Part shown: positions 337 to 41,005 of the stretch, piece after piece
Layout: each line of letters starts with the position of its first letter
Numbering within the stretch: position 1 is the first letter of the stretch
Assembly (NCBI GenBank): GCA_014360825.1
Contig: JACIWT010000017.1
Coordinates: 1-45,990, forward strand
DNA: 45,990 bases
From: Chloroflexota bacterium
Lineage (GTDB): Bacteria; Chloroflexota; Anaerolineae; UBA2200; JACIWT01
Reading direction: 5' to 3'
The notes under the pieces: model-generated
The model's database searches: none
What the model was told of the DNA's origin: nothing
Seen by the model: the letters and a program-made list of their open reading frames with translations, nothing else
Position numbers and translations under genes: made by a program

Positions 337-1305
337 ATGGCTGGAAATACCGATCTGACTACCCTTATCGAGGGATTTCGTCTCTTTTGCTTGGCTGAGG
401 GCAAGCAAGTCACCACTATGCGCTGGTATATGGGAAAGCTTAAGGTTTTCGTGAACTACCTCCAGGCCCAGAACTTGCCAACCAGCGCTACTGAAATCAC
501 CACTACCCACCTGCGAGCTTTCCTCGTCCACCTGAGGGAGAACGTTAAGGCTGATGAGAACAATCCCATGAAACCAACACAAGACAAGCAACTCTCCCCT
601 AAAACCATACAAGGCTATGCCCGCACACTGAAGGTTTTCTTCTCGTGGCTCGCTCGGGAAGGCTACCTCCGTGATGATTTGGGAAGGTTGCTTAAGATCC
701 CCAGCGCACCAAAGGTGATCGTTGAAACCCTGAGCGACTCACAGATCAAGCAGCTGTTGTCAACCGTTGATTGCAGGACCCCGAGGGGATTCAGAGATTA
801 CTGCATCATCCTGGTCCTTCTGGACACCGGAGTCAGGCTGTCGGAGCTAGTCAACCTTCAGCTCAAAGACCTCGACCTGGAAAGAGGAGTCTTCAAGGTG
901 ATGGGGAAAGGTGCCAAAGAAAGGCTGGTACCCTTCGGCGCAAAAGTCAAGACGGCACTCTGGAAATACGTTCACAAGTTCCGACCCGAGCCATTCCATC
1001 CGAACATCGGCAATCTGTTCCTTCAATCCAACGGCCAACCCCTGACCTCTGATCAAGTATACCGGCTAATCAGGAATTACGCTCGCACGGCAGGAATTGA
1101 GGGTGTAAGATGCTCGCCGCATACGCTCCGCCATACTTTCGCTAAGAACTTCCTCATAAACGGTGGTGACCTGTTCACTTTGCAGAAGATCCTGGGTCAC
1201 TCCAGCCTGGATGTCGTGAGAATATATGTGGAGCTGACCTCTGAAGAGGTGCAGGTTCAACACCGGCGATACAGCCCGGTGGACTGGCTGAAATTAAAGG
1301 TCTGA
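337..1305 (+). CDS. Tyrosine recombinase/integrase, catalytically complete
   Basis: A 322-residue site-specific DNA recombinase of the XerC/D-phage integrase family. It should cut and join DNA through a phosphotyrosine intermediate to insert or excise the element. An N-terminal SAM-like core-binding domain (about 8-112) precedes the catalytic domain (about 130-320). All catalytic positions are visible: Arg167 in TGVR, Lys near 191 in GKGAKER, HTLR (His262, Arg265), His288 in LGHSS and Tyr297. The ATG start has an excellent ribosome site, GGAGGT, seven bases upstream. Its neighbour is tRNA-Leu, the likely target. Its last 12 bp overlap the end of a convergent paralogue. Family assignment is firm; the target is inferred from position. 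Confidence 0.94.
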   Translation: MAGNTDLTTLIEGFRLFCLAEGKQVTTMRWYMGKLKVFVNYLQAQNLPTSATEITTTHLRAFLVHLRENVKADENNPMKPTQDKQLSPKTIQGYARTLKVFFSWLAREGYLRDDLGRLLKIPSAPKVIVETLSDSQIKQLLSTVDCRTPRGFRDYCIILVLLDTGVRLSELVNLQLKDLDLERGVFKVMGKGAKERLVPFGAKVKTALWKYVHKFRPEPFHPNIGNLFLQSNGQPLTSDQVYRLIRNYARTAGIEGVRCSPHTLRHTFAKNFLINGGDLFTLQKILGHSSLDVVRIYVELTSEEVQVQHRRYSPVDWLKLKV

Positions 1306-2397
1306 GCAGGTAGCCAGTCTGGCCCTGAAAACATCCATTGGGCTGTATTTCCACTGTTGGGCGAGGAGATCCTTCGTGTCGAGATTGACATAGAGTTTCA
1401 CTACTTCTAGGCTGGAGTGACCAAGGATGCGCTGCAGGGTAAGCAGATCTCCTCCATTAAGGAGAAAGTTTCGGGCGAAGGTGTGCCTACAGGTGTGGGG
1501 GCCCAGCCGCTTTCCGTGGATCCCCGCTTCCCTGCACGCCTGGGCGATGATCTTATAGACGTAGTCAGACGTTAACGGGTATCCGGCCCTGGTCAGAAAG
1601 ACATTATCAATGCTGCTCAGGGCGGGCGTCGGCCTGTACCTGTGCACATAGTCGAGTAGCGTCCTGCAACTACTTCTGCCCAGAGGAACTATGCGCTCCT
1701 TGTTGCCCTTACCGAGGACCTTGAAATATCCACCGTCTATACAGAGGTTCTTCATTTGCAGATTGACCAGTTCAGAGACACGCACACCGGTATCCAGGAG
1801 TACGTGCAGCATGGCGTAGTTCCGCTTCCCTTGGGCGGTAGGTTTTCTTATCGTGGTCAGAAGCCTGCTCACCTCCTGATCGGTGAAGAATGGCATCGCC
1901 ACGGTCGCTATCTTCGGCGTCTTGATGTGCCTCATCGGATTGTCAGTCAGGAGACCTTCCATGACCGCCCAAGAGAAGAAAGCCTTCAGCGTTTTCACAT
2001 AGCCGGCCACTGTGTGCGAAGACAATGCTCTGTCTCCGGTACAGCGTCGTGGGTTATTCTCGCCGACCTTGACCTGGGTTTGTAAGTGATGAACAAACCG
2101 CCTGATCTCCTGCACAGTGATTTCCTCCACCCGCGCGGATTGGCCTTGGTTTCTCAGAAAGACCAAGAAGTACTCCAACTTCTGCCGATACCAGCGTATC
2201 GTCCTCGGGCTTTTGCCCTCGATCTGACAACAAAGAAGATAGTTTCTGACCAGTGTTTCGACGGAATTGCCCGCCCTTGAGAGGCTTACTGCCCAGGCGC
2301 CTTCAGCCCGCACCCGAACCCCAGGACGCACTCTTTGAACCTTGCCCATCTTAGAAAACCATCCGCAATTGAACCTCTCGCGAGGTGAGACTCTCAA
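1294..2397 (-). CDS. Second tyrosine recombinase, paralogue of the first, convergent
   Basis: A 367-residue tyrosine recombinase clearly related to the 337-1305 product, sharing TGVR, SELVNLQ, LGKGNKER, PHTCRHTFARNFL, LGHSSLEVV, a catalytic Tyr and a YSPMD tail. All catalytic residues are kept, so it should be active. The core-binding domain starts near residue 45; the first 40 residues look poorly conserved. The listed TTG start overlaps the stop of the upstream gene (TTGA), suggesting coupling, but no clear ribosome site is seen, so a later start such as the ATG at 2349 is possible. It is the last gene of the leftward transfer operon. The two genes may act together or in opposite directions (integration versus excision). 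Confidence 0.88.
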   Translation of the reverse strand: MRVSPRERFNCGWFSKMGKVQRVRPGVRVRAEGAWAVSLSRAGNSVETLVRNYLLCCQIEGKSPRTIRWYRQKLEYFLVFLRNQGQSARVEEITVQEIRRFVHHLQTQVKVGENNPRRCTGDRALSSHTVAGYVKTLKAFFSWAVMEGLLTDNPMRHIKTPKIATVAMPFFTDQEVSRLLTTIRKPTAQGKRNYAMLHVLLDTGVRVSELVNLQMKNLCIDGGYFKVLGKGNKERIVPLGRSSCRTLLDYVHRYRPTPALSSIDNVFLTRAGYPLTSDYVYKIIAQACREAGIHGKRLGPHTCRHTFARNFLLNGGDLLTLQRILGHSSLEVVKLYVNLDTKDLLAQQWKYSPMDVFRARLATCSDL

Positions 2398-3245
2398 TCC
2401 ACAAATCTCATGCGCTGCTCTTCACCTGGCCTGCGCCAGATCGGCCCCAGGACATCCCCGTGAACCAGATCTCGAGCCGTCACCAGGACCGTGGGCAGAG
2501 AGGGGAACTCACCCCTACCAAGCCTTCTGGCCATCCAATCCACCATCTTCTTCTCCCTTCGCTCATCCGGAGCCACAATTAGGAGCCGTGGCCGGAGCTC
2601 CATTTCCCCAACATGGTTATGATAACCTCGTACTAGGTAGTACGCTTCATAGACCTGTAGTTTCTCAGCGAAGCGCGTCATGCTCTCCGTCCCCCGATCC
2701 CACTCCAGAAAAAAGGAACCCTCCTCCGTTCCCAGAGCCCACAGACAATAGGCGTCCGGGCTCAGGACGAGACGCTTTCCACGATGCGTGAATGCATAGC
2801 GCACTTCACCTTCCCCGAGCCACACCAATGCCCTCCCTCCCCTGCTCTCAAGGCCCTCTTTTATGGCAATGTAGAAATCCACTACTTCTAGCCCATGGCA
2901 GAGGCCAGCAATGCTCTCCACCCTGCGACCTCTTGCACCCGGGCCAACAACCTTTTTACGGCCCTCATTGAAAGCCAGAAGGGCACCCCTTCCCGGCTGA
3001 TAGACGTAAGGCCCTGAACCCTGGGTCACGGGCAGCCGCAGGCGGGTCAGGTAACCCCTTTCTGTCAGGATTCTCAGGCGTCGGCAGGCGGCTTGCACCG
3101 AGGCCAGCTCACCATCTTTCCGGAAGTAGAGCCTTTGGATCTGCTCCCGAATCATCTGCCCATGCCGGACTACCGCCCGGATGATCTCCTGATCCCGGGA
3201 AGTGGGAGGCAATGTCCTGCCGGCGCCGCTTCTCCGGTTCCTCAT
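2394..3245 (-). CDS. Replication-relaxation (MobC-like) winged-helix protein
   Basis: A protein of about 283 residues resembling the Replic_Relax family found with coupling proteins on mobile elements. The N-terminal region (TSRDQEIIRAV to YLTRLRL) looks like a winged helix. The middle holds the family-like SPDAYCLW and FFLEWDRGTES stretches, followed by KLQVYEAYY, whose acidic residues recall a nuclease-like fold. In this family the protein is thought to act at the transfer origin; here that is inference. The ATG at 3245 is preferred over one at 3272 because AAGGAGG lies six bases upstream of it. This start lies 137 bp inside the upstream coupling-protein reading frame, an unusually long overlap. 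Confidence 0.8.
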   Translation of the reverse strand: MRNRRSGAGRTLPPTSRDQEIIRAVVRHGQMIREQIQRLYFRKDGELASVQAACRRLRILTERGYLTRLRLPVTQGSGPYVYQPGRGALLAFNEGRKKVVGPGARGRRVESIAGLCHGLEVVDFYIAIKEGLESRGGRALVWLGEGEVRYAFTHRGKRLVLSPDAYCLWALGTEEGSFFLEWDRGTESMTRFAEKLQVYEAYYLVRGYHNHVGEMELRPRLLIVAPDERREKKMVDWMARRLGRGEFPSLPTVLVTARDLVHGDVLGPIWRRPGEEQRMRFVD

Positions 3246-5307
3246 ATCTCCCCTCCTTCTCTCCCAACACAATCGCTTCCTCTACCACATGGCGAGGTAG
3301 AGCGTACTTCTCCCTGCTCCTCTGGACCAACATCTCCACCTGGTCCCTAGCCTGGTATCTGGAAGGCGGGGGCGGGGTGCGGGCCCAGAAGGCAGGCAAT
3401 TTGACCCCCTCCTGCATCAATTGCGCGTAGATCTCGTACCTCCCCAGAGAGCGGATCTCATCGGCGCTTAGCTCCTGGGTATTGAAGTGCCGCTCCAAGT
3501 AGACCGCCTCGTCCCGCTCGCCCATTTGGAAGCAGATGACGTTCCCCACGTTGGCAAAGATCGCCTCCCTGGTCTCTTTCGGCTTCAACTGTCCCAGACG
3601 CTGGGCAGCCAGGATGAGCCCCAGACCAAACTTCCTCACCTGGTCTGCCATCTCCCCCACCGTGCGAGAGATGAACCAGGAGCACTCGTCCATGATCAGG
3701 AAGTGTAGGGCCCTTTCCGATTCCGGCGTGTCCTCTCTGGAAAGAGCAGTCTGCCGAAAGAGCAAAGTCAGTAGCGAGCCCAGGAACTGGGCGTTGTTGA
3801 CCCCGATCCCGGCCAGGTCAAACAGGAGAATGTTGCTTTTGTCCATCACGTGGCGGATGTTGATCGCCGATTTCCTTTGCCCCACGATGTTCCTAATGAA
3901 AGGCGTTCCCAGAAAGCGCTGCAGCCGGTGCAAGGTAGGGGCCACCTTCTGCTCCCTGATCCCCTCCCGGAAAGCAGATAATTGCTCGAGGAAGCGCCTG
4001 GTCTCGGCGTTGCTCACCCTGGGCAGGATGGATTGGCGATAGAGGTCGTCGTCCAGGATCCTGGCCATGTCTACCAGGGTGCCCCCGATCTCGAGAGCCG
4101 CGTAGGCCGTGTGTCTGAGTACCATATCCAGGACCGGCCCCCAGTACTCCGTCCCATAGATGCGGCGGCAGATCTCCACCAGTTCGTCCACGACCAGGAA
4201 TTCGAAGCCCGGCCTGGCAGTCAGGAAGTTAAGGCCCACCGGGTGGGCCACATCGGCGAAGCGCACCACGATCACATCTTCGAGCCTGTGGTCAGGGAGG
4301 CTGCCCAGAAGGGAGGGCACCAGGCTGCCGTGAGGATCCATCACACTCACCCCAAAGCCCAGGGCTACCAGGTCCAGGGCAATGTTGAGCAGGAGGGTTG
4401 ACTTCCCAGTCCCGGTGGACCCGAAGAGGACCAGATGCCTCAGGAGATCCTGTGGAGCCAGACGTATTTCCTTCTCCTGCCCATTCAGCGAAACAAACCC
4501 CACCCGTACACCCTTCGTGGCCAGTCTCGTCAAGGGCGGCAGCCTCCTGGCCCCGCTGAACTCCAGGTATCGATTGCGTACTTTCTCCGGCGAGGGGATG
4601 TGATACAGTGCGGTCAGCTCGTCCAGGGTGAGAAGGGAAGGGTTCAGGCGAAGGAGAGGCCAGTGCCTCGAGCGCATGGCTCGCAGAGCACTTCCGGAGT
4701 TCACCTTGATCCTGGTGGGCCTGAGGGCATTCTCCGCCCCAAACTGGCCGAAGGCAGCGATCATGTTCCCCAAGCGGTTGCGAGCCTGGCGGGTGGTCCC
4801 AGCCCAGGCCATCAGCCGCAGGATAGCTTGGAAGCATATGCCCTCCATGCTCGGTGCCAGGGCCGGGCGCACCAGGATCTGGATCATCGCCCCATCGCCG
4901 GGTGAAAGGTCCGAGATGCTGGCCAGAACCCCGGCCATCGGATCGGCTTCGCTGTCCTTCAAGATCCTCAAAGGCCTGTCCCGGCTCATACCTAGCACCA
5001 GCTCCGCAGAGGCGAACTCCGCTGGTTCTGAGCCCGCTTCCTCGGTGGGTTGGATTTCTACATCCGGGAAGTGGGCTTTGATTTGCTCCACCGCCATTTC
5101 GCCTACAGCTGGGTAGGGCACCCAGATTTGAAACTGAATTCTACCAGACTCTCCTCTGATCTCCAGGGAGATGTGTTCCTGCAGTCCAAACAGGCGGCGG
5201 ATGATAGACTTAGGCAGTGCCTGCCAAAAGGCAGCCAGCCACCTGCTGGAGGCGGAGAGGTCATGAACGGTATTCTTCGATGGCACGATCTTCAGGATCT
5301 GGTACAT
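3109..5307 (-). CDS. VirD4/TraG-like conjugative coupling ATPase
   Basis: A 732-residue P-loop ATPase of the type IV coupling/DNA-pump class that should deliver element DNA to a transfer channel at the membrane. Walker A is GSTGTGKST (about 296-304). Walker B is FLIMDEC (about 537-542). A Gln-bearing motif, AAQRLGQL, follows near 568. The roughly 250-residue N-terminal part matches the accessory domain seen in Gram-positive and Chloroflexota coupling-type ATPases. No obvious N-terminal membrane segments are seen, so membrane attachment may come from neighbouring proteins. The last 45 residues are low in conserved character and lie over the start of the next gene, suggesting a lost stop codon. 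A promoter-like extended -10 lies about 140 bp upstream. Confidence 0.87.
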   Translation of the reverse strand: MYQILKIVPSKNTVHDLSASSRWLAAFWQALPKSIIRRLFGLQEHISLEIRGESGRIQFQIWVPYPAVGEMAVEQIKAHFPDVEIQPTEEAGSEPAEFASAELVLGMSRDRPLRILKDSEADPMAGVLASISDLSPGDGAMIQILVRPALAPSMEGICFQAILRLMAWAGTTRQARNRLGNMIAAFGQFGAENALRPTRIKVNSGSALRAMRSRHWPLLRLNPSLLTLDELTALYHIPSPEKVRNRYLEFSGARRLPPLTRLATKGVRVGFVSLNGQEKEIRLAPQDLLRHLVLFGSTGTGKSTLLLNIALDLVALGFGVSVMDPHGSLVPSLLGSLPDHRLEDVIVVRFADVAHPVGLNFLTARPGFEFLVVDELVEICRRIYGTEYWGPVLDMVLRHTAYAALEIGGTLVDMARILDDDLYRQSILPRVSNAETRRFLEQLSAFREGIREQKVAPTLHRLQRFLGTPFIRNIVGQRKSAINIRHVMDKSNILLFDLAGIGVNNAQFLGSLLTLLFRQTALSREDTPESERALHFLIMDECSWFISRTVGEMADQVRKFGLGLILAAQRLGQLKPKETREAIFANVGNVICFQMGERDEAVYLERHFNTQELSADEIRSLGRYEIYAQLMQEGVKLPAFWARTPPPPSRYQARDQVEMLVQRSREKYALPRHVVEEAIVLGEKEGRYEEPEKRRRQDIASHFPGSGDHPGGSPAWADDSGADPKALLPERW

Positions 5308-5464: not shown

Positions 5465-5893
5465 CTAGGACCCGGAGAGGTGCCCTTTCTCATACTCGTA
5501 AGCCAGTGCTCCCACAACTACGCCTAAGACAAATACCAGGGCTAAGGCAATTATAGAGCCTTGTTTGGTTGGGATCGCCGGGGCGAGGCATCGCGAGAGG
5601 AGCCAGGCCATCGCACGTAAGACCCCGTATCCTAGAACCCAGAGCAAGCCGCCAAGCAGGGCATAGCCAGCCCGGCCGAGGGGTGACGCGGTCGGGCCCC
5701 ATTTCTTCCCACCCGGCCACCCACCAGCCAGCCTTCCGATCAGCTCTCGACTCATCCCCAGGCACAGGGGCCCGATCACGCCAAACAGCACAAAGGCAAC
5801 GGTCGTGATGAAGACAGACGCCAGGATAGCCCCCAGGCGAAAGCACGCTCTGGCAACCCATCGACCCAGTCCGAAAAGGCACCCGCTCCCCAT
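5465..5893 (-). CDS. Small integral membrane protein of the transfer block
   Basis: A 142-residue protein with at least three hydrophobic spans: about residues 18-46 (LGAILASVFITTVAFVLFGV region), 73-95 (YALLGGLLWVLGYGV) and 112-132 (IIALALVFVLGVVVGALAY). I do not recognise a family. The ATG at 5893 has GAGAGG five bases upstream. The competing overlapping frame lacks hydrophobic periodicity. Its place between a coupling ATPase and another membrane protein suggests a mating-channel component comparable in role to small VirB/Trb membrane proteins, but that is context only. Confidence 0.65.
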   Translation of the reverse strand: MGSGCLFGLGRWVARACFRLGAILASVFITTVAFVLFGVIGPLCLGMSRELIGRLAGGWPGGKKWGPTASPLGRAGYALLGGLLWVLGYGVLRAMAWLLSRCLAPAIPTKQGSIIALALVFVLGVVVGALAYEYEKGHLSGS

Positions 5894-5925: not shown

Positions 5926-6414
5926 TCACGAAGAAGCCAGGCCATAAAGCATGGCCAGCGCGGCCGCGACGCAGAGGCAGATGATCACGATCCACAGCAC
6001 GATGTTGACCACGATGATAGCCAACTCGAGGGCCATCACGAACCCATTAGCAGCGCCGATGACCACCTCAAAGAAGGCTACCCAGTGGTACTGGGCTCTA
6101 CCTGCTGACAAGCCCCTAGTAGCCACTAGTAGGACCAGATACATCACCAGACTGGCCAGGTTGAGGGTCGCCAGGAAAGGGCTGCACTGATACAGGGCCC
6201 ACAGGATCTGTCCAAATTGGTCGCCCAACACCAGGAAGAAGTCAGATGTGAAGACAGGCACTATCGATGGCAGGACCAGGATCAGCAGCAAGCCGGCCAG
6301 GATGGTCGGACCAGCCAGGATCGTCGCTCTGCGCAGGTGGTGATCGATGGGCGCCCGCCACGACTCGTAGGCTGTCGCCCGCGACAGAAAGCCAGCCAAG
6401 TTCACGCTCTGCAT
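5926..6414 (-). CDS. Integral membrane protein with about four spans, transfer block
   Basis: A 162-residue protein with hydrophobic segments near residues 32-55, 75-100, 120-140 and 140-160 counted from the ATG at 6414. That ATG is preferred to 6441 because GGAGG lies seven bases before it and the preceding gene's stop ends only 2 bp upstream, a coupled arrangement. No enzymatic motif is visible. With the next gene it probably forms part of the membrane channel or its regulator. Family not recognised. Confidence 0.68.
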   Translation of the reverse strand: MQSVNLAGFLSRATAYESWRAPIDHHLRRATILAGPTILAGLLLILVLPSIVPVFTSDFFLVLGDQFGQILWALYQCSPFLATLNLASLVMYLVLLVATRGLSAGRAQYHWVAFFEVVIGAANGFVMALELAIIVVNIVLWIVIICLCVAAALAMLYGLASS

Positions 6415-6416
6415 GG

Positions 6417-7109
6417 TCACTCCTCCTCTCCGTAGCGCCAATGGGCCAAGTAGAACCAGTAGGCTGTCTCACCTTCCTCCACAGGCCTGCCGGGAGCAAC
6501 AACGGCCCCTAACAGGATCGGGTCGAGCGTCAGGCACGCTGCTCCCAAAGCCATCAATGCTGGCGCAACTGCCACCGCCCCCGCGGCTACTGCTGCACTC
6601 ACCACTGCCGAAGCCGCCAGCGGCGCGGCGGCCAACCCCCAGGTCACTCGGGCGGCTGTCCCAAGCCAACCAGAAAGGCGTGCAACTGGCTTGGGTGTCG
6701 AGGGCATGAGAACCTCTGCCGTCACTCCTCCCTCACGGATTCTCCCCTTCTCTACCTCGTGAGCTACGTATAGAGCATCGAACTCCACTCCTGCCTTCTG
6801 CATGGCCCGCAGGTGTCTCAAGATCCGTTTGGGAACGGGGAAACCATCTCGGTCGTGGAACAAGGGATCTTCTGCCAGGTTCACCAGTACCCAGTCGCGG
6901 TACTCACCACAGTACACGCGATGGCCGCTGAAGAGCGGCATCGTCCCAAGTTGGAGCACGGGAAGATCTGCCTCCAGGCTGAGTGCCACGACCGACCTGG
7001 CGCGCTCATAAAGAGCTGGGTCGACTGGCGGGCGCGGGATCAATCCCCTGACTTGTCCGCCTTCCTCCGTCTGCAGAAACAATGGTCCTAAACGAACTTC
7101 CATTAGCAT
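6417..7109 (-). CDS. Hypothetical protein with hydrophobic Ala-rich C-terminal part
   Basis: A 230-residue protein. Residues 1-130 look soluble and mixed alpha/beta. Residues about 145-205 are rich in Ala, Val and Leu and could form two membrane helices; a short charged tail ends in GEEE. The ATG at 7109 has a full GGAGGTGA ribosome site and overlaps the stop of the upstream small gene (ATGCTAA), so translation is probably coupled. No family is recognised. Position supports a transfer-apparatus role. Confidence 0.66.
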   Translation of the reverse strand: MLMEVRLGPLFLQTEEGGQVRGLIPRPPVDPALYERARSVVALSLEADLPVLQLGTMPLFSGHRVYCGEYRDWVLVNLAEDPLFHDRDGFPVPKRILRHLRAMQKAGVEFDALYVAHEVEKGRIREGGVTAEVLMPSTPKPVARLSGWLGTAARVTWGLAAAPLAASAVVSAAVAAGAVAVAPALMALGAACLTLDPILLGAVVAPGRPVEEGETAYWFYLAHWRYGEEE

Positions 7110-7321
7110 AGCTCACCTCCCACTTCCTCGTCATCAAGAGGGTCCTCACGTGCCAGCCCTGAATGTCTGCCACCCTTTTCGTGCTCGGACGGTGTGCCAC
7201 CGATGAATAGGTCAGAGAACCGACACCCGTCCGGATGGTAGAGCCGCAGGATGAGCCAGGGACCCTGTTTCCTTAAACTCATCTTCGCGATGCTGATAGC
7301 CCGTCTGCCTTTACTATTCAT
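7103..7321 (-). CDS. Small hypothetical protein (72 aa), transfer block
   Basis: A short basic-then-acidic protein. The N-terminal half (MNSKGRRAISIAKM to LRLYHPDG) is basic and the C-terminal half ends DDEEVGGELC. It is supported by a strong ribosome site, GAGGAGG seven bases before the ATG at 7321, and by overlap with the next gene. No family recognised. It could be a small regulator or an accessory transfer protein. Confidence 0.55.
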   Translation of the reverse strand: MNSKGRRAISIAKMSLRKQGPWLILRLYHPDGCRFSDLFIGGTPSEHEKGGRHSGLAREDPLDDEEVGGELC

Positions 7322-7505
7322 GTGCTACCCTCCTCACGATTTCCTCCCGAAAGACAGGCACCGTGCAATGGATCTCCCAGTGACTCCACTTCTTCGCTTC
7401 TATCTCTGCCCTCCTTCCCGTACTCCAACTGCACCCTTCGGGTCGGCCTCCCCAAGTAGAAAAACTGGCGAGCACCGGTGAGCCTGCCCGCCAGTCAGTT
7501 GACAA
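7314..7505 (-). CDS. Possible small first gene of the transfer operon (63 aa)
   Basis: An open frame ending in EEIVRRVAHE overlaps the ATG of the following gene by 8 bp, as in a coupled operon. The only long-frame start is TTG at 7505, without a ribosome site, and it coincides with the -35 box of a rightward promoter. A shorter form starting inside is possible. The C-terminal half looks protein-like, the N-terminal half less so. Uncertain. Confidence 0.33.
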   Translation of the reverse strand: MSTDWRAGSPVLASFSTWGGRPEGCSWSTGRRAEIEAKKWSHWEIHCTVPVFREEIVRRVAHE

Positions 7506-7527
7506 CGAGAGGAAAGAAGCGTATGAT
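7499..7527 (+). promoter_or_regulatory. Near-consensus sigma-70 promoter for a small RNA
   Basis: TTGACA (7499-7504), a 17-bp spacer and TATGAT (7522-7527) form a near-perfect promoter pointing rightward. No rightward gene follows. Initiation is expected near G7534, exactly the first base of a stem-loop ending in a terminator. Confidence 0.8.
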
Positions 7528-7533
7528 ATAGAT

Positions 7534-7608
7534 GGTGAGATGACTGCTCCTGCGGCGGGACTCTCACCGTAAGACGCCTGGGTGCGAGCCGGGCGTCTTT
7601 TCTCTTTT
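7534..7608 (+). ncRNA. Candidate two-hairpin small RNA (about 73 nt)
   Basis: The predicted transcript starts with GGTGAGA (7534-7540), which pairs with TCTCACC (7562-7568) around a C/G-rich loop. A second stem, AAGACGCC (7571-7578) with GGCGTCTT (7592-7599), runs into TTTTCTCTTTT and is a good Rho-independent terminator. A consensus promoter sits at the right distance. The loop carries CTCCTGCGG, which includes a possible anti-Shine-Dalgarno CUCCU and also occurs twice in the recombinase leader. No known RNA family is recognised. It lies divergent to the transfer operon and may control it. Confidence 0.66.
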
Positions 7609-7681
7609 CACCTATATCCTATCCGAAAGGCCAGCCGTGTCAAGGCCTCACCCCTTGACTTCCTGCATTTCCATGGTGATA

Positions 7682-8284
7682 TCAGCCCTTCATGGGCAAA
7701 AAGCGATCCAATTCTTCGACCAGTGGCTCCAAAGCATCGTCATAATAGGTCAGATGCGGCTTCTTGAAAAGGTCCATTAAATCCACCCTCTTGCCTCGGT
7801 CGGCCAGATAGTGCTCCGCTCTGCTGACCGCCAGGCTCAAGAGCGACAGGCCAAAGGTCCCGCTCAGAAGCTGTAGCCAGCTGCTTCCCCTCTGAGCCGC
7901 AAGGAGTGACAGGCCCCTGGTGACCCATTTCCTGATCGTTCTCTTATCTCGGCCGTAGTCCGCGGCCAGCTCCGCGAGCCTCGCCCCGCCGAGCCACCGC
8001 TCCGCCAGTTTGCCCAGCCGGAAACCAGAGGCTCTCAGATGATGGTAGGCCGTAATCGCCAGGTAACTGAACCGCTTCCCACACACCGTGCATCTCAAGC
8101 GAGGAACCCTCGTTCCATAGGCACGGCTGTAACCGTCACGCACGAAATTGCCTTTGCCCTCCACTCCGAAGGCCGCACACGCCCTGTTAGGGCACCAGCA
8201 CTTCATGAGATCGATGTACCTGATCCGGGCCAAGAATTCGCGAAACAGTGCCTCATCAAACACCTCATCCTCGCGGTTGCCCAT
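7682..8284 (-). CDS. Zinc-ribbon plus HTH DNA-binding protein, IS1 InsA-like
   Basis: A 200-residue protein with a four-Cys zinc ribbon: CPNRAC near residue 31, then CTVCGKRFSY near 70. A helix-turn-helix follows: LAERWLGGARLAELAADYG then RDKRTIRKWV. This order is that of the DNA-binding half of IS1-type transposases (InsA). No DDE nuclease domain follows; the C-terminal 80 residues are helical and unassigned. It may therefore be a domesticated regulator rather than a transposase. The ATG at 8284 is chosen because GGAGG lies just upstream; an in-frame TTG at 8302 precedes that site. Confidence 0.68.
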   Translation of the reverse strand: MGNREDEVFDEALFREFLARIRYIDLMKCWCPNRACAAFGVEGKGNFVRDGYSRAYGTRVPRLRCTVCGKRFSYLAITAYHHLRASGFRLGKLAERWLGGARLAELAADYGRDKRTIRKWVTRGLSLLAAQRGSSWLQLLSGTFGLSLLSLAVSRAEHYLADRGKRVDLMDLFKKPHLTYYDDALEPLVEELDRFLPMKG

Positions 8285-8577
8285 TATCCCTCCCCGCAAC
8301 AACCCTTAGGCCCAGGAGCGTGGCTATGACAAAGTGCCAAAACGATCGCGCTGTCTTCTCTCCAAGACGCTCTCATGCGCTCCATTCCCTCTTCGCTACT
8401 TTACGTCCCTTTTTCGGCTCCGCGTCGGTTCGCAGCGATAGATATCATGGCCGTTCCTGACCAATATCCACATGGCCTGACTGCTACATCGCTTCCAGAC
8501 CCACAAGACGAGGAAAACAGCTGCGGCACTGAACTGAAAGGTTGCGTTTTCCATCGCAGCTCTCTTTTCCGACTTGG

Positions 8578-8926: not shown

Positions 8927-9009
8927 CTGCGCAAGAATCTCGCCGAAAACGTGCTTTCACCAAGCTTCAAGTCGGCATCGTCACGCTCTGTCCACTAAGT
9001 CTTGCGCAG
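8927..9009 (+). repeat. 10-bp inverted repeat in the sigma-factor leader
   Basis: CTGCGCAAGA (8927-8936) and TCTTGCGCAG (9000-9009) are perfect inverted copies separated by 63 nt. In the leader RNA they could close a large stem just before the start codon, or on DNA they could bind a regulator twice. Confidence 0.6.
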
Positions 9010-9037
9010 GCCAGATAACCAGTGTGACTTGGACCCC

Positions 9038-9985
9038 ATGGCTGAAGAAAAGTCCGACCGGCTACTGTTTGAAGCGATTCAATACGGCTCACCGCCTGAG
9101 CGCAAGGCGGCCGAGGAGGCCCTCCACAGCAGGTATAAGGATGTGGTGCGTAGGCATATCAGGCGCAACGTGCCCCCACCTGACGCCGTTGACTTGGAGC
9201 AAACCGTCTGGATGGAGGTCATCCAAGGGGCCCGCAAGGTCCGACTGCGGTTCGAGAGTGCCGCGCCGTGGATACTGGGGATAGCCCGCAAGAAAGTGGC
9301 GGAATTCTATCGCCGTCCAAAACCACCTACCTCGTCGCTCCAAGAGGGCATGGCAAGCGAGGGCCGCATCGCTGAGCCGCTGGAAGAGCGGGAGAATATC
9401 CTGGAATTGCGCATGGCTTGGCGAGCCCTCACCCCGGAGCAGCGCTTAGTGGTTTTCCTGGCCGACATCGTGGGAGCCCCCCTCTCCGAGGTGGCGCGAT
9501 GGGTCGGTCGTTCCGAACAGGCCATCTACGAGATGCACAGACGGGCTAAGGAGGCCATCCGTTCCCTCCTGTGGGATATCCAACAGGGACACGAGCCCCA
9601 ATCCCAGTGGCTGGCGCCATCCTCCCACACCTACGTAGTCATCGATCTACACCCGGCGCTCGGTCTGGGGGAACTCCAATTTCTGGCTGAAGGCACTGGC
9701 GTGGAGCCCGACCTGTTGTTGGATTCTTTCGAGTTTGGGATGGCCCTCTACGTGGAACGGACACCGGAGTATCTGGAGGCAGTAGACCGCCACTTCGCAC
9801 TTTTTCACCTCGTTCTCCTCTCCCGGGAGGGGCTGGAGGAGTATTTGGCAGGCACGGGCGAAGGTTGTGATGCCTATGTATTCCAGATGACCCTGGAAGA
9901 CGATTGCCTTACCCCTGACCCCCGTTATCAGGCCCTCAAGATGCGCGCCGGCTGGCGCTTGCGGCCCACCGAGGGGCCCGAGTAA
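9038..9985 (+). CDS. Sigma-70 family (ECF-like) sigma factor with extra C-terminal domain
   Basis: About 315 residues counted from ATG 9038. Residues about 10-100 resemble sigma region 2 (DLEQTVWMEVIQ to AAPWILGIARKKVAEFYRR). Residues about 120-180 resemble region 4, with an HTH (LTPEQRLVVFL then APLSEVARWVGRSEQAIYEMHRRAKEAI). A further 130 residues at the C-terminus are not part of a usual ECF factor and are unassigned. The product should direct RNA polymerase to a set of element promoters. No ribosome site is obvious, so the exact start (9038, or TTG 9002) is uncertain. It leads the rightward maintenance block. Confidence 0.8.
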   Translation: MAEEKSDRLLFEAIQYGSPPERKAAEEALHSRYKDVVRRHIRRNVPPPDAVDLEQTVWMEVIQGARKVRLRFESAAPWILGIARKKVAEFYRRPKPPTSSLQEGMASEGRIAEPLEERENILELRMAWRALTPEQRLVVFLADIVGAPLSEVARWVGRSEQAIYEMHRRAKEAIRSLLWDIQQGHEPQSQWLAPSSHTYVVIDLHPALGLGELQFLAEGTGVEPDLLLDSFEFGMALYVERTPEYLEAVDRHFALFHLVLLSREGLEEYLAGTGEGCDAYVFQMTLEDDCLTPDPRYQALKMRAGWRLRPTEGPE

Positions 9986-10164: not shown

Positions 10165-10194
10165 TTGACAAGTTATAAGAACTATTGTTATCAT
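10165..10194 (+). promoter_or_regulatory. Promoter of the ATPase-replication operon
   Basis: TTGACA (10165-10170), an 18-bp spacer and TATCAT (10189-10194), set in A/T-rich DNA unlike the surroundings. Initiation near 10201 gives a 28-nt leader before the ATPase start, without a clear ribosome site. Confidence 0.72.
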
Positions 10195-10228
10195 CGATTG
10201 TAGTTAGCAGAACTCTGTCTGTAAAACT

Positions 10229-11095
10229 ATGCCTTTGCCCTATCTCACCTACTTCGATCTCAAGGAAGAACCATTCAGCACGGTCCCCTCCCCCAGATAT
10301 CTCTTTCTCACCCCGGTCCACGCCACCGCCCTGGGCAAGACCGAGTTCATCGTCGAGGCCAAGAAGGGCCTGACCGTCATCTTCGGAGAGACCGGCATGG
10401 GCAAGTCCAGCCTCGCTCGGCTCCTGCACCAGAAGTTCCTCGACCGAGGCTTTAATTCGGTGCTGTTGACCAATCCCAACTATCCCACTCCTAATGCGCT
10501 CCTGCGCACCATCATCCAGGAATTCCGGCTTCCCAGGACAGCCCGGGCCTATAAGGACAACCTGGATCTTTTCAAGGCCTACCTCTACGATCAAGCATTG
10601 GAGAAAAGGAAAACTATCGTCCTCATCCTGGACGAGGCTCAAAGTCTACGCTTTCCCCTCCTGGAGTTGCTCAGACAGTTGATCAATTACGAGACCAACG
10701 AGCAGAAGCTCCTGCAGCTGGTGCTCTTTGCCCAGGATGAGCTCAGGCTGAAGCTGGCCCACCCGCGAGGCAAGAGTTTCCGCAGCCGCATCGCCATGGC
10801 CTCCACACTGGACCGGCTGGCCCCAGAGGAGATCGAGAAGATGATCGATTTCCGCTGGCAGGTGGCCAGTGGCGGGAACGCACACCCCTTCGAATTAGGG
10901 GCTTTACGAATGATCTTTGAGCATTCGCAAGGCATCCCCAGAGAGGCCAATATCTTGGCCGACAATTCCCTCCTTCTGGCCTACCTCAGGAAGGTCAGGA
11001 GGATCACCCAGAAACTGGTTGAGGAGGCAGCCAGGGAGCGCCATGAGACCATCGGCTCTGGGAAGGAGAAAGATGAGAAACGACCCATTCGCTGA
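10229..11095 (+). CDS. ExeA/TniB-like AAA ATPase
   Basis: A 288-residue AAA ATPase of the ExeA (GspA-like) type. The N-terminus has the family signature YFDLKEEPFSTVPSPRYLF. Walker A is GETGMGKS (53-60) and Walker B is VLILDEAQS (about 130-138). The C-terminal part is helical, as in the AAA lid. Such ATPases occur in secretion operons and, as relatives of TniB/IstB, in transposition and mobile elements; this setting favours DNA handling. The following gene starts 23 bp before its stop, so the two are co-translated. Confidence 0.86.
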   Translation: MPLPYLTYFDLKEEPFSTVPSPRYLFLTPVHATALGKTEFIVEAKKGLTVIFGETGMGKSSLARLLHQKFLDRGFNSVLLTNPNYPTPNALLRTIIQEFRLPRTARAYKDNLDLFKAYLYDQALEKRKTIVLILDEAQSLRFPLLELLRQLINYETNEQKLLQLVLFAQDELRLKLAHPRGKSFRSRIAMASTLDRLAPEEIEKMIDFRWQVASGGNAHPFELGALRMIFEHSQGIPREANILADNSLLLAYLRKVRRITQKLVEEAARERHETIGSGKEKDEKRPIR

Positions 11096-17421: not shown

Positions 17422-18363
17422 TCACAACCCCGGCCTGGCCAATCTCGAGTACTTCTCCCTGGTCTCGTCGTTCCAGCTTCCCGGGGCCAGCCCCAGTTTC
17501 TCAAATACTCGCTCGATTCTCTCCCCAGCCTTGAGTTGTCGTACCGCAAAGGTGTCTCTCAGAACCTGGCAGCTAACCTTCTTTACAATCCCAGCCCTTT
17601 GGGCGGTGTTTCGCAATAAGTAGCTCAGATTGCGCTCGCTACACTCAAAGAGGTATTCCTGCGGGCAATACTCCGCCATGTAAGCCCTAAAAGCAGCAGG
17701 GAACTCAGGGGGAAGCCTCAGTTTCCTCTGCTTGAACGCCTTTCCTTTATGTCTGATCCAAACCTCTGGACGATACTGGTTCGAAAGATCGATGTCCTTG
17801 AGCCGAATCCCCAAAAGTTCCTCTCTCTTCACTCCTGTCTCCAAAAGGAGAAGAACTAGCAGGTACGTTCGGCTGTCCTTACTCGCCTCACCAAGGAGTC
17901 TCTCGCACTCCTCATCATACAGGACATCCGGCAGGGGAGAAGTGGCCCTTTTGTAGATCAGCCTTGATGCAGGGTCCTGCGGGATCACATTGCTTTCGAC
18001 CAGCCAGCGGAAGAAGTTCTTCAGTGCGGTCACCCGGCGGTTCAGGGATTTTGGGCTGCAGGGCTTCCCGCGGCTAGATCGCAGATATGCAAGGAAGCTT
18101 TCCAGTTCAGCGGTGCCAATGCCACCGACCTTCTTGTTCGGGCCGATGAACTTCCGCAGGAGAACTACGTCTGCGAGGAAGGCTTTGACAGTGTGCCTGG
18201 AATACGAACTGGCTGCAAGGTGAGCGTGATAGGCCTGCATGGCCGCAGAGATGGAGGAGGCACTGGAAAGCGGCCTGGACGCAATTAGGGACGGAGGATA
18301 TTCTCCCGTGCCATTCTTGACCTTGAGAAGTGGTAGTTGAAAAGCCCCGCCCTTTCCCTCCAT
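17422..18363 (-). CDS. Tyrosine-recombinase-like protein with degraded active site
   Basis: A 313-residue protein with the full two-domain layout of tyrosine recombinases: a core-binding domain about 40-125 and a catalytic-like domain about 145-310. Key residues differ. TGVK (Lys179) replaces TGVR, QVLR (Gln266) replaces HxLR, GL (Leu292) replaces LGH; Arg269 and a Tyr near 305 remain. Either it is inactive and binds DNA only, or it uses a changed active site. I recall similar degenerate recombinases as common in Chloroflexota. The ATG is only six bases after a TATAAT, suggesting leaderless translation. It may mark the right part of the element. Confidence 0.8.
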   Translation of the reverse strand: MEGKGGAFQLPLLKVKNGTGEYPPSLIASRPLSSASSISAAMQAYHAHLAASSYSRHTVKAFLADVVLLRKFIGPNKKVGGIGTAELESFLAYLRSSRGKPCSPKSLNRRVTALKNFFRWLVESNVIPQDPASRLIYKRATSPLPDVLYDEECERLLGEASKDSRTYLLVLLLLETGVKREELLGIRLKDIDLSNQYRPEVWIRHKGKAFKQRKLRLPPEFPAAFRAYMAEYCPQEYLFECSERNLSYLLRNTAQRAGIVKKVSCQVLRDTFAVRQLKAGERIERVFEKLGLAPGSWNDETREKYSRLARPGL

Positions 18364-18911: not shown

Positions 18912-19370
18912 ATGCACATCGAAGTCGACCAGAGTGGGAAAATCGGGGATACCAAAGTGGCAACTGTTTTAGCTTTCTCCGACACAGAAAGTTACGCTAT
19001 CCTGATCCCGGCAGAAGTCAAACGGGCCTGTTTACATGAATTGCGCCAGAGAGGGAAATCTGGTACAACCCTTTACCTCCAGCTTTTTGCTGTTGGCCTT
19101 TTCCTGCTTTTAGCAGAGGTGGTTGGGAGAGTGTCGCTTGTCACCATTGACATCGAATATCCAGGACACAGCGCCACTACCAAGAGGTTTTTGATGAACT
19201 TATTTGGAAGGGCTGGGCTCTCGGTTGATGCAGACATGATCGAGTTTCGGCAAATTCACGGGGTCGGAAAGAAACCAGCCGCCCACGACAAGGCCTATTA
19301 CGTCTCCCGTGGTGATGCCAAACCAGACAGGGTTATCACTCTTGAAGAGTTGCTCGAGCAATTCAAATGA
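18912..19370 (+). CDS. Unknown 152-residue protein, possible RNase H-like fold
   Basis: The N-terminus IEVDQSGKIGDTKVATVLAF has an acidic residue and small residues in a beta strand, recalling the first strand of RNase H-like proteins. A second acidic strand, VSLVTIDIEYPG, and a later AAHDKAYYV could supply further residues. This fold is a guess from pattern alone. A hydrophobic helix (LYLQLFAVGLFLLLAEV) lies in the centre and probably packs inside the domain. It has its own leaderless promoter and operator-like palindrome. A leftward RNA candidate abuts its 3' end. Confidence 0.62.
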   Translation: MHIEVDQSGKIGDTKVATVLAFSDTESYAILIPAEVKRACLHELRQRGKSGTTLYLQLFAVGLFLLLAEVVGRVSLVTIDIEYPGHSATTKRFLMNLFGRAGLSVDADMIEFRQIHGVGKKPAAHDKAYYVSRGDAKPDRVITLEELLEQFK

Positions 19371-19454
19371 AAAAGATCGGGGGCTGCCTGACGGCAGGTA
19401 CACCTAGTTCAGCCCACGGAGTGGTTACCGTAAGGTCCCTAGGTCACCCGATCC
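19371..19454 (-). ncRNA. Candidate structured RNA (about 84 nt), multibranched
   Basis: A strong leftward promoter predicts initiation at G19454. From there GATCGGG (19453-19447) pairs with CCCGATC (19381-19375), closing the molecule. Inside, ACCTAG (19445-19440) pairs with CTAGGT, and CTGCC-GTCA-GGCAG forms a hairpin before the closing strand. The 3' end is TTTTT. The layout is that of a compact junction RNA with a terminator-like end. It is not recognised as a tRNA or any known family. There is no open frame. Confidence 0.62.
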
Positions 19455-19460
19455 ATAAAT

Positions 19461-19488
19461 ATTATACCACAAAAACGAAAGTTGTCAA
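19461..19488 (-). promoter_or_regulatory. Consensus promoter for the structured RNA
   Basis: Minus strand TTGACA (19488-19483), a 16-bp spacer and TATAAT (19466-19461). Both hexamers match consensus exactly. Confidence 0.78.
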
Positions 19489-20053
19489 ATTTTCGGTACT
19501 GGGACACTACATGGTACACCACACTGAACCGTGGTGTGCAGAACTTGGACAAATAGGCATACTCTGTCTGATTCCCTAATCAGCTGGAGATTTGCCCATG
19601 GACCCACAAACCATATTTTGCCCCAATTGACTGTCCGGCAAGAGAGCAGATCCTGAAGTTGAGACAAGGGTTCGGACAGGGTGCTGCACCGGGCGAATAA
19701 AGCCTCAAGCACCGTGCACGATCTGCCTGATGACACAAGCAGGCAAACTTTTTGTTTCAGTAGAATGAACAGCCCGGAGTAGAGGTTCCACCTTTTTACC
19801 CCTGTTACTGCAGGTTGCTGTATGAAGGAATCAGCAGGCAACGGTTCAGACTGGTTCACTCCTTCACCGCAGAGGTGGTCACGGATCGCTTCGCCCATCG
19901 CAGGGCTTACTGTTTGATAAGTCCGCGGGACTTCTGAAATCGATGTGCTTGCGGACATCCTCAGCACTTTGGTCTACAGTTCGGATACTGTCGCCATGTG
20001 GAACCGGAATGAATTGGGAACAAGGTCAAAAAGGACTACATAATGCAGCCAGG
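19489..20053. other. Gene-free stretch
   Basis: Open frames here lack protein-like character. AAGTCCGCGGGACTT near 19919 is on one strand a one-mismatch version of the CCTGCGGACTT repeat near the tRNA; it could be chance. Confidence 0.4.
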
Positions 20054-37088: not shown

Positions 37089-40000
37089 ATGAGCAAGAAA
37101 ATGCAATTAGGCGTGTTCTGGGGAAAAGCGAGGTTGGTGTTCTTAGTAAGTTTGGTCTTCACTATCGGGATGCTTTTGTGCCCCAGCATGGCTGGTGCGG
37201 ATACCCTGTCTCTCAAGCCAGTGTCCAAAGAGCCCACACAGTGGAGCACTACGGACGTGGGCATGACGGTAGCGCCGCAAGAGATTGAAAGGCCTGATAA
37301 GGGCAATCCTAAGCTGGGGTCGTCACTAAACCAACTGCTGGAAGCACACCGTCGCGGAGGTCTGATTGAGGCACGAGCCTTTGCAATGAGGCATGGGATG
37401 GTTTTCCATGATGAGCAAGTGCAGGTGGAGGTGGTGACATACAAAGAAGGGGTGGGGGGCCTCATAGACGTAGTGGAGACCATGGGAGGAGAGTACCAAG
37501 GCCATTATGAGACGCTGCTTCAGGCTTTAATGCCCCTTAACGCTCTAGAGTCTCTAGCCCTACGACCAGATGTACAGGTCATTCGCGAGCCCCAGCGGGC
37601 GATGACACTCGAGTCAACGCTGGCCGGGAGCGTTAACAGTGAGGGTCTGGGCCCGTCGAACGCCTCGCCCTGGCATGCGGCCAGCTACACTGGCACGGGA
37701 GTGAAAGTAGGGATCATTGACGTCGGCTTCCTAGGATACACGGGGCTGTTGGGGACCGACCTGCCCTCCTCAGTAACCGCGAGGGACTACACCGGCACCG
37801 GTGTAGGGACCGGCACTAAGCATGGAACGGCTTGCGCGGAGGTCATCCATGACATGGCCCCCAGTGCAATAATGTACCTGTCCAAAATAAGCACTAAAGT
37901 CGAGCTCGCCAGTGCAGTCAACGATCTCATCAATGACGGCGTGGACATTATCTCCATGTCTCTGGGCTGGCCCCTTGATGGGCCCGGTGACGGGACTGGG
38001 TATCTGGCAAACATTGTGAGCAACGCCCGGGCGAATGGCATCTTCTTTACTACGGCTGCCGGAAACGAAGCACTGGTGCACTGGGTCGGGTATTTCAGAG
38101 ACGATGGCTCTGGCAATAACGTGTGGGGGGCTACCCAGAATATCAACTGGTTTGGGCCTGGGGACGGCTCTGCCTATGTCATACCCAAAGACTATATAAT
38201 TACAGTTGCCCTCCACTGGGACGATTGGACTAACGTCAATCAAGATTACGACATGGAGCTGTACAGGTGGGATGGCTCTCGTTGGGTATATGTAACAGGG
38301 TCGTACAACTGGCAGAATGGCGGTGCGGGCCAGACTCCTGAGGAGTACATCCAGCTTTCTGCTTCAAGCAGTGCAGCCTACGGCGTGGTGGTCCGCAAAT
38401 GGAGTGCCACCCGTGATGTGTACCTTTCTCTAGATGCACCAAAGATGACCCATTTGGACGAATGGTGGGAGGAGCGCAGCCTCACCTTCCCAGCTGATTC
38501 GCCGGATGCTATGACAGTGGGTGCTGTTGATGTAGGCACTCCTTACGCCTTGGAACCCTATAGTTCCCGGGGACCCACCTTCGGGCCCGGCGGCGTCCTA
38601 GGCGACCTTTACACCAAGCCGGATATCGTAGGCTACGCCAACGTCTCGACGGTGAGCTATGGGACAAGGGGATTTAACGGCACCTCAGCAGCCACACCGC
38701 ACGTGGCAGGAGCGGCAGCTCTTGTTAAGGATGCGTATCCCGGCTATAGCGTGAGCCAGTTACAGGGCTTTCTCGAGGGCAGGGCCGTCGACCAAGGTGC
38801 CTCAGGCAAGGACAACTCGTATGGCTCAGGCAGGCTGAACTTGGGCAGCCCGCCGTCCAGCCAGCCTGACCTGATAGTGCCGCAGATCGATTGGACACCC
38901 GAGTCGCCAAAGGTGGGTGACAACATGCACTTCACGATCCACGTAGAGAACCAGGGCAACTCTAACACCAGCCCTTGGGGCCAAGTAGGCGTACGATGCT
39001 TCATTGACAGCACCTCAATTGGGGACCAGTACACCAGCAACATCGCTCCGGGGACGACTGAGTTCTTCGACTTCTATTGGACAGCGACCTCGGGCGACTA
39101 CACTGTGCGCGCGGTAGCTGACTACGGCGATTTCATCCCCGAGAGCAATGAGGGTAACAACGAAAGACAGGAGTCCTTTGTCGTCTCCACACCGAGTCAG
39201 CCTGACCTAATAGTGCAGAGCATCTCCATCAGCCCTGCCAACCCCAGCGTCAATCAACCCATCCTTATGACCGTGGTGATCAACAACCAAGGGAAAAGCC
39301 AGGATCCATTGAGCGTCGGCAACTCTACCGATTTGTATCTGGACTACCAGCCCAGGCTAGGACAGGATGACTGGAGCTATAGCATCTATGGCTGGGACAG
39401 AACAGATCCTCTAGCATCAGGCGAGACTCTCGAGCTCCAATACACCCATCCGGGCTTCAGTGCTGCAGGCTCTCACTATTTGTACGCTGAGATCGACGAG
39501 CCTGACCTTTACCGGGAAACGGATGAAAGCAACAACATCTGTGGGCCGATTTACTTCAGCGTCAGTTGTCCCACACCTGGCTCCCCCAGCAACCCTTCGC
39601 CGGCAGACAACGCGACTGGGGTCTCGGTTAATGCGGATCTAGACTGGTCAGATGCCAGTGGTGCGACGTCATACGATGTATACTTCGGCACCCCTTCGCC
39701 CCCGCCCTACCATGGTAACACTGCCTCTAGTTCCTTCAGCCTGCCCACACTAAGTTACTCGACCCATTACTACTGGCAGATCGTGGCGAAGAACAGCTGT
39801 GGAGAGACCCCTGGACCGATCTGGGACTTCACGACCGGCAGTTGTCCGACGCCCCCAGCGCCGACACTGTCGTCCCCCGCCAACGGAAGCACGACCAGCA
39901 ACAGCACGCCGACGTTTGTTTGGAACAGTGTCAGTGGGGCAACCTCGTACCAGATTCAAGTAGATGACGCTCCAAGTTTCACTTCGCCGGCGATCGACAC

Positions 40001-40880
40001 AACCACCTCGAACACGAACTATACGCCTGCTTCTGCTCTTGCCGATGGTATCTATTACTGGCGGGTGAGGGGGCACAACAGTTGTGGAAACGGAGCCTGG
40101 TCTGAGATATGGAGCTTCACCATCTCGACAGTGTGTACTGTGCCACCTGCGCCGGCACTGTCGTCCCCTGAGAATGGCAGCACGACCAGCAACAGCACGC
40201 CAACGTTCACTTGGAACGCCGTCAGCAGCGCGACCGCGTACCAGATTCAGCTGGACAATATGCCGTATTTCACTCTTCCAATCCGGGACAGGACGGTTGT
40301 CGGCACCAGTTGGACCTGTGACATCGCCCTTCCCCAGGATACGTACCTGTGGCGTGTGCGAGCGCAGAACGGCTGCGGTTCCGGATCATGGTCAGAAGTG
40401 TGGACTTTCACGGTAAGTGCTCCACCGAACCGGGCACGGTCCGACCTCGACGCTGATGGGAAGAGAGATCTCGTGCTCTGGCGGCCCAGCAACGGCACCT
40501 GGTACGCCCTCAAGTCTTCTGCCGGGTATGCCTACGGTAGCAGTTTCACCCGCACCTGGGGCAAGAGCGGGGATGTGCCGGTGGGCGGCGACCTCGACGG
40601 CGATGGGAAGATGGACCTGGTGCTCTGGCGGCCCAGCAACGGTACTTGGTACGCCCTTAAGTCCTCCGCCGGGTACGCTTACACTAGCAGCTTCACCCGC
40701 ACCTGGGGTAAGAATGGGGATATCCCGGTGGGCGGCGACCTGGACGGCGATGGGAAGATGGACCTGGTGCTCTGGCGGCCCAGCAACGGTACTTGGTACG
40801 CCCTCAAGTCTTCTGCCGGGTATGCCTACGGTAGCAGCTTCACTCGCGGCTGGGGGAAGAGCGGGGATGTACCACTGTAG
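37089..40880 (+). CDS. Secreted subtilisin-like protease with CARDB, FN3-like and FG-GAP repeats
   Basis: 1263 residues. A signal peptide (VFLVSLVFTIGMLLC) and prodomain-like region precede an S8 peptidase domain (about 195-600) with Asp in VGIIDVGF, His in KHGTACAEV and Ser in FNGTSAATPHVAGAAAL. An insert of about 130 residues (YFRDDGSGNN to PKMTHLD) interrupts it. Two CARDB domains (about 600-820, each with QPDLIV) and three FN3-like domains (about 820-1115) follow. The C-terminus is three 47-49-residue FG-GAP/VCBS-like repeats with DxDxDG calcium loops. An active extracellular protease whose tail probably binds calcium and perhaps the cell surface. Confidence 0.92.
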   Translation: MSKKMQLGVFWGKARLVFLVSLVFTIGMLLCPSMAGADTLSLKPVSKEPTQWSTTDVGMTVAPQEIERPDKGNPKLGSSLNQLLEAHRRGGLIEARAFAMRHGMVFHDEQVQVEVVTYKEGVGGLIDVVETMGGEYQGHYETLLQALMPLNALESLALRPDVQVIREPQRAMTLESTLAGSVNSEGLGPSNASPWHAASYTGTGVKVGIIDVGFLGYTGLLGTDLPSSVTARDYTGTGVGTGTKHGTACAEVIHDMAPSAIMYLSKISTKVELASAVNDLINDGVDIISMSLGWPLDGPGDGTGYLANIVSNARANGIFFTTAAGNEALVHWVGYFRDDGSGNNVWGATQNINWFGPGDGSAYVIPKDYIITVALHWDDWTNVNQDYDMELYRWDGSRWVYVTGSYNWQNGGAGQTPEEYIQLSASSSAAYGVVVRKWSATRDVYLSLDAPKMTHLDEWWEERSLTFPADSPDAMTVGAVDVGTPYALEPYSSRGPTFGPGGVLGDLYTKPDIVGYANVSTVSYGTRGFNGTSAATPHVAGAAALVKDAYPGYSVSQLQGFLEGRAVDQGASGKDNSYGSGRLNLGSPPSSQPDLIVPQIDWTPESPKVGDNMHFTIHVENQGNSNTSPWGQVGVRCFIDSTSIGDQYTSNIAPGTTEFFDFYWTATSGDYTVRAVADYGDFIPESNEGNNERQESFVVSTPSQPDLIVQSISISPANPSVNQPILMTVVINNQGKSQDPLSVGNSTDLYLDYQPRLGQDDWSYSIYGWDRTDPLASGETLELQYTHPGFSAAGSHYLYAEIDEPDLYRETDESNNICGPIYFSVSCPTPGSPSNPSPADNATGVSVNADLDWSDASGATSYDVYFGTPSPPPYHGNTASSSFSLPTLSYSTHYYWQIVAKNSCGETPGPIWDFTTGSCPTPPAPTLSSPANGSTTSNSTPTFVWNSVSGATSYQIQVDDAPSFTSPAIDTTTSNTNYTPASALADGIYYWRVRGHNSCGNGAWSEIWSFTISTVCTVPPAPALSSPENGSTTSNSTPTFTWNAVSSATAYQIQLDNMPYFTLPIRDRTVVGTSWTCDIALPQDTYLWRVRAQNGCGSGSWSEVWTFTVSAPPNRARSDLDADGKRDLVLWRPSNGTWYALKSSAGYAYGSSFTRTWGKSGDVPVGGDLDGDGKMDLVLWRPSNGTWYALKSSAGYAYTSSFTRTWGKNGDIPVGGDLDGDGKMDLVLWRPSNGTWYALKSSAGYAYGSSFTRGWGKSGDVPL
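40443..40877 (+). repeat. Three 147-bp FG-GAP/VCBS repeat units, gene 1
   Basis: Units at 40443-40589, 40590-40736 and 40737-40877 (the last 141 bp before the stop). Each encodes DLDxDGKxDLVLWRPSNG, then TWYALKSSAGYAY, then SSFTRxWGKxGDxP. Nucleotide identity between units is very high. Confidence 0.93.
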
Positions 40881-41005
40881 GTGAGGAGCCTGGGAGAAGA
40901 CTCTCATGTGATGCTGCCAACGGTCCAGCCATAAAGACAAGCTTGCACTGCTGATATCGGAGCGTGAAGGTAGCTCGCGCATTACGAGTGCGCGGTCGGG
41001 GGTGC

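Follow-up and report, generated by a model that had tools for sequence, protein, structure and literature searches.

Of the explanations that we considered for a small intergenic region in an uncultured Chloroflexota bacterium, the most likely is that it encodes an antisense RNA which holds down the expression of a MobC-type mobilisation operon, probably through attenuation at a terminator, here called T2; our confidence in this reading falls somewhat short of even. Within a single 180-bp stretch of the window (the whole 45,990 nucleotides analysed, contig JACIWT010000017.1), two promoter-terminator units stand face to face, with predicted start points about 75 bp apart. Both promoter-like sites, both terminators, the full complementarity and the order of the parts are present in the DNA. 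At this level the features of an attenuator appear to be in place, namely a putative antisense RNA with its own promoter and terminator, a facing sense promoter, and a terminator before the first gene.

On the plus strand, the small RNA promoter P+ (7499..7527, TTGACA-N17-TATGAT) agrees with the consensus at 11 of 12 positions, with the -35 box TTGACA at 7499-7504, a spacer of 17 nucleotides and the -10 box TATGAT at 7522-7527; a preliminary description of this DNA had placed it correctly. P+ would give rise to a predicted antisense RNA of about 72-75 nt (7534..7606, plus strand). This RNA would open with hairpin I (7534..7568), which combines a 7-bp stem, an inner 5-bp stem and the loop CCUGC. 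Its outer stem is perfect (7534-7540/7562-7568) and begins at the expected RNA start, in agreement with the earlier claim of a 7-bp hairpin at start-point distance. Terminator T1 follows (7571..7608, plus strand). An 8-bp stem with a U tract had been described here, of which the terminator and the U-rich tail stand; the stem (7571-7599) instead comprises 11 pairs including G-U, and the tail UUCUCUUUUC, though rich in U, is interrupted. As a 76-nt RNA (7533-7608), the region folds into two stem-loops at -37.4 kcal/mol (z = -3.93), a value equalled by none of 200 shuffles. No convincing ORF runs across it in the ORF list for both strands: the listed ones only begin inside T1 (plus strand, 7582-7767) or inside P+ (minus strand, 7314-7505), which bears out the statement that the unit lacks a coding frame.

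The preliminary description had called the unit divergent from the conjugation genes. This was incomplete, since the unit lies antisense to the probable leader of the operon. On the minus strand, the facing promoter P- (7616..7643, TTGACA-N16-TAGGAT) matches the consensus at 10 of 12 positions, 4 of 6 in its -10 box TAGGAT. Chance alone would yield 0.02 promoter-like sites scoring 10/12 or better per 180 b of one strand. The transfer-operon mRNA should start near 7609 from P-, and with such a start the small RNA would be complementary over its full length to the leader's first ~75 nt. The predicted leader RNA, or T2-terminated short transcript, would span about 150 nt (7459..7609, minus strand; fold-based, with predicted ends). 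T2 itself (7464..7495, minus strand) is formed by ACUGGCGGGC..GCUCGCCAGU at -20.0 kcal/mol and is followed by UUUUUC, a U5 tail; it sits between the antisense target in the leader and the first operon gene (7321), ~140 nt ahead of that gene. Between 7322 and 7700, P- is the sole candidate promoter on the minus strand that scores 8/12 or better, and the operon therefore seems to depend on transcription passing T2. An inverted repeat, GTCAAGG-N7-CCTTGAC (7639..7659), overlaps the -35 box of P- and could, weakly, be considered a candidate operator there; it is the only exact copy in the window, and the same 1.1 kb contains further perfect inverted repeats of 7 bp. A type I toxin-antitoxin arrangement was also considered and dropped, as the minus-strand leader contains no obvious hydrophobic small ORF on reading of the sequence.

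The operon downstream, on the minus strand, begins with a 72-aa ORF (7103..7321) preceded by a GAGGAGGG site and continues with ORFs of 230 aa (6417..7109), 171 aa (5926..6441) and 142 aa (5465..5893), all four without a family. They are followed by a coupling-protein-like ATPase (3109..5307; TrwB_AAD_bind, DUF87), a Replic_Relax protein (2394..3272; PF13814, E 1.9e-20) and, at the operon end, a tyrosine integrase (1294..2397). PF13814 appears as a MobC-type relaxase family in a table of the accessible part of PMC5357655. A transfer or copy control RNA had been suggested for this position. The transfer part of that suggestion is fair and is sharpened by the facing promoter and the second terminator; copy control is unsupported. 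Among the seven operon ORFs scanned, the four without a family included, no replication initiator was recognised by family.

Three genes of the window, all within 18 kb, code for tyrosine integrases (337-1305, 1294-2397 and 17422-18363), two of them convergent with overlapping 3' ends. The interval from a tRNA-Leu gene (42-126) to the first of these integrases holds three short CTCCTGCGGACTT-like repeats (216-293), which resemble the tRNA anticodon arm CTGCGGACTTAAAATCCGC and may be core or arm sites for an integrase. The loop of the small RNA shares CTCCTGCGG with these repeats, a motif with 4 copies in the window versus 0.79 expected. Elsewhere, overlapping face-to-face promoter-like sites (plus strand 11/12, minus strand 10/12) are found at 10165-10225, just ahead of an AAA ATPase gene (10229-11095) that adjoins a sigma-70-like gene (9002-9985); the ATPase resembles the XrtA/PEP-CTERM-associated family TIGR03015 at 165.1 bits, under the cut-off of 324.5. 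Two perfect 12/12 sigma-70-like promoters occur on the minus strand at 13140-13112 and 19488-19461, the latter antisense to ORFs 18912-19370 and 19367-19579. Finally, 147-bp-periodic repeats (39192-45990) are common to the 3' ends of ORFs 37089-40880 and 40964-44221 and to the contig end.

From the arrangement around P+ and P-, we infer transcription, its start points, RNA pairing, attenuation and an effect on transfer, and the following sequence of events may be proposed. P+ would drive the short antisense RNA, and P- would start the leader of the mobilisation operon, whose first ~75 nt would be complementary to it. The antisense RNA would meet the nascent leader, probably first via the complementary hairpin loops, and its binding would sequester leader sequences otherwise able to delay the T2 5' arm. 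T2 would then form and transcription would halt about 140 nt ahead of the first gene. Consequently, the transfer genes would be on only if transcription of the leader outpaces the supply of antisense RNA, or if another factor carries the polymerase past T2.

Such a switch would need a leader segment that competes for T2. A candidate antiterminator, or pre-emptor, is found at 7540..7570 (minus strand), where base-pairing of GGUGAGAGUCCCGCC..AGUC to the T2 arm GACUGGCGGGCAGGCUCACC is possible at -29.9 kcal/mol. In a transcript halted just ahead of the T2 3' arm, the T2 5' arm prefers this long-range pairing with the segment complementary to the small RNA. Along the growing transcript, the mean probability of the antiterminator is 0.93 at nt 136 and 0.92 at nt 140, and T2 replaces it by nt 144, so that the layout permits a kinetic switch. 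The pairing is nevertheless no better than chance for so GC-rich an arm: the same value was reached by 123 of 500 upstream sequences after shuffling and by 91 of 500 taken from the genome at matched GC content; by duplex energy, the counts were 123 of 1000 for shuffles and 107 of 3000 for segments of the genome. In pAMbeta1, which served as positive control in the same test with the start point placed by eye, only 6 of 200 shuffles reached the real value, an antiterminator that beats most shuffles, unlike the candidate here (123/500). Moreover, the full pAMbeta1 transcript retains its antiterminator, whereas here T2 is favoured at equilibrium. Since the antiterminator stands at chance level, the idea that the antisense RNA prevents antitermination is drawn from the layout, and thermodynamics do not support it.

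This chance-level pairing is in line with an antisense effect that involves no RNA switch, which we consider unlikely but a serious contender. Facing polymerases would collide, the duplex would be cut by a double-strand RNase, and T2 would be constitutive, the operon being fed by leak-through or by a processive antiterminator. Whether or not the small RNA is included, T2 has a probability of about 1 in the fold of the full transcript, and its stability in every complete-leader fold, together with face-to-face start points just ~75 bp apart, would suit this explanation. It leaves unexplained, however, why a terminator should stand right after the antisense target, on the only visible route into the operon.

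Alternatively, the RNA may be an ordinary trans-acting small RNA that lies beside the operon by happenstance, P- being a chance match and T2 the terminator of a 206-aa ORF (7682-8302). T2 does lie ~190 nt past this ORF on the same strand, the -10 box of P- matches at 4 of 6 positions only, and, on reading of the sequence, Shine-Dalgarno-like sites could be pairing targets for the loop GCUCCUGC. Against this, pairing of the loop with 24 ORF start regions in the window was mostly unremarkable compared with shuffled loops (best ranks 8, 10, 29 and 30 of 300), and the operon would be left without a recognisable promoter. We regard a trans-acting role as improbable.

Searches for relatives were carried out with the RNA region and with the neighbouring proteins. 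When the 161-bp region was compared with 100 relatives, matches outside its own genome were of chance length only; a 401-bp region had no match in plasmids and one of 41 bp in phages. The preliminary description had proposed a covariance search across the phylum. With a model built from the single small RNA sequence entered twice and run on 400 genomes of the phylum, matches appeared in 12 of the 400 at E up to 0.1, its own genome included. The best matches outside it (30.8 bits) were rejected because they have the look of generic terminators, and one of them carries a tRNA-like arm; the RNAs inspected were those of the 12 loci other than L229 and L231, where the flanks were short. No RNA homologue was thus found in the 400 genomes by this single-sequence model and, for that reason, the proposed covariance support did not materialise. 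In an Rfam scan at the gathering threshold, tRNA alone passed; Xoo2 (23.4 bits, gathering 45), BjrC68 (17.4, gathering 39) and lower-scoring families reflect a generic hairpin-plus-terminator resemblance.

Among the proteins, the coupling protein had matches in 7 of 120 genomes (E up to 1e-10), 58 of 400 (1e-30) and 16 of 396 (1e-40), its own included in each count, and its relatives outside the own genome were 25-36% identical. In a scan of the genome collection with a coupling-protein alignment, the best 80 of 564 relatives shared 26-34% identity and came mostly from Patescibacteria; these are so distant that no homologous leader could be obtained from them. The 206-aa ORF had weak relatives in 7 of 100 genomes, its own included, and the ORFs of 72, 142, 171, 206 and 230 aa gave no tblastn match at 1e-3 in loci L047-L165. 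Furthermore, viral contigs scanned with four neighbouring proteins yielded no relative. Taken together, these scans and the DNA and covariance searches turned up no homologue of either the RNA or its leader.

We then asked how rare the layout is. In 1.2 Mb of the own genome, a terminator followed a promoter of at least 10/12 by no more than 160 nt on 10 occasions, and in 3 of these units the promoter scored 11/12 or better. One such unit in a 46-kb window is therefore uncommon, not extraordinary. Relaxed thresholds gave 107 units in 3.2 Mb: 14 from 60 coupling-gene loci (854,902 b), 31 from the own genome (1.2 Mb) and 62 from 80 mostly Patescibacteria loci (1,120,439 b). A facing promoter alone accompanied 39 of these 107 comparison units, and none combined it with an opposed terminator, as the window does. 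At stricter thresholds, both features were likewise absent from the 10 units of the own genome and from the 10 units found in 100 loci (1,330,865 b), 3 of the latter having a facing promoter. One site of the same genome with opposed terminators (L206) was rejected because it lies inside a coding gene and has no promoter. The layout was not seen in the 60 coupling-gene loci, with a detector that also misses pAMbeta1 and pT181. As both of these positive controls were missed, the rarity estimate holds for such genomes only, and absence in relatives is weak evidence.

That no functional RNA gene exists here, the promoter and terminator matches being intergenic and due to chance or decay, would fit the promoter-like sites with terminators elsewhere in the genome and the failure of every search to find a relative, and hence any sign of selection on the RNA, but the strong fold (z -3.93) and a two-way arrangement found nowhere in the comparison DNA count against it, and we consider it improbable.

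The proposed attenuator can be set beside several known systems. To our knowledge, antisense attenuation is mainly a means of copy control in Gram-positive plasmids, with one well-studied case in conjugation, that of pCF10. In F-type plasmids, the antisense RNA FinP limits transfer by blocking translation of traJ with the help of FinO. The putative RNA described here would share with FinP/traJ the antisense limit on transfer; on the other hand, ~210 nt separate it from the first start codon downstream. In the accessible portions of the open-licence papers, no report was found of a MobC-type operon preceded by antisense attenuation, nor of such attenuation in Chloroflexota.

In pT181, according to the accessible part of PMC5703833, the 87-nt antisense RNAI is complementary to the untranslated repC leader, with a terminator-like stem-loop downstream, and a pre-emptor in the leader pairs with the terminator 5' arm unless the antisense RNA binds. 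The order of the parts and the compactness are alike, with an antisense RNA of about 75 nt here versus 87 nt there. In contrast, the pT181 stem-loop, as described in that part, lies at the repC start and a replication initiator is controlled, whereas T2 lies ~140 nt before the first ORF of a mobilisation operon and its candidate pre-emptor is not above chance. The antisense RNAIII of pIP501, of 136 nt, acts by attenuation, as stated in the accessible part of PMC4981023. In pAMbeta1, the sense promoter is followed by the antisense 3' hairpin, then the antisense body, the antisense promoter and finally the terminator (we located the sense promoter and the antisense terminator by eye). Judging from the portions of these sources at hand, our unit shares with pIP501 and pAMbeta1 the linear order of promoters and terminators and the facing promoters, and the possible operator at P- recalls CopR at their sense promoter; unlike it, these systems control replication, and the pIP501 RNA is longer at 136 nt.

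The closest in purpose and working is pCF10, where the antisense RNA Anti-Q favours the terminator IRS1 ahead of the conjugation operon (PMC8265641, accessible part). The likeness to Anti-Q/prgQ IRS1 is one of layout; in the same portion of the source, Anti-Q derives from the prgX operon and pCF10 is under pheromone control; no such component was identified here. We put forward as a possibility, with confidence well under even, that the region is an antisense-RNA transcription attenuator gating a MobC-type mobilisation operon of an integrative element in an uncultured lineage. Such a control would be Anti-Q-like and compact, with an RNA of ~75 nt and a leader of 150 nt, and would have no sequence relationship with the Gram-positive plasmid systems. 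The predicted attenuator is small enough for a direct test in a reporter strain. If the proposal is true, so compact an antisense attenuator, placed in front of the mobilisation genes of an integrative element, would point to other lineages having arrived at this solution for controlling DNA transfer.
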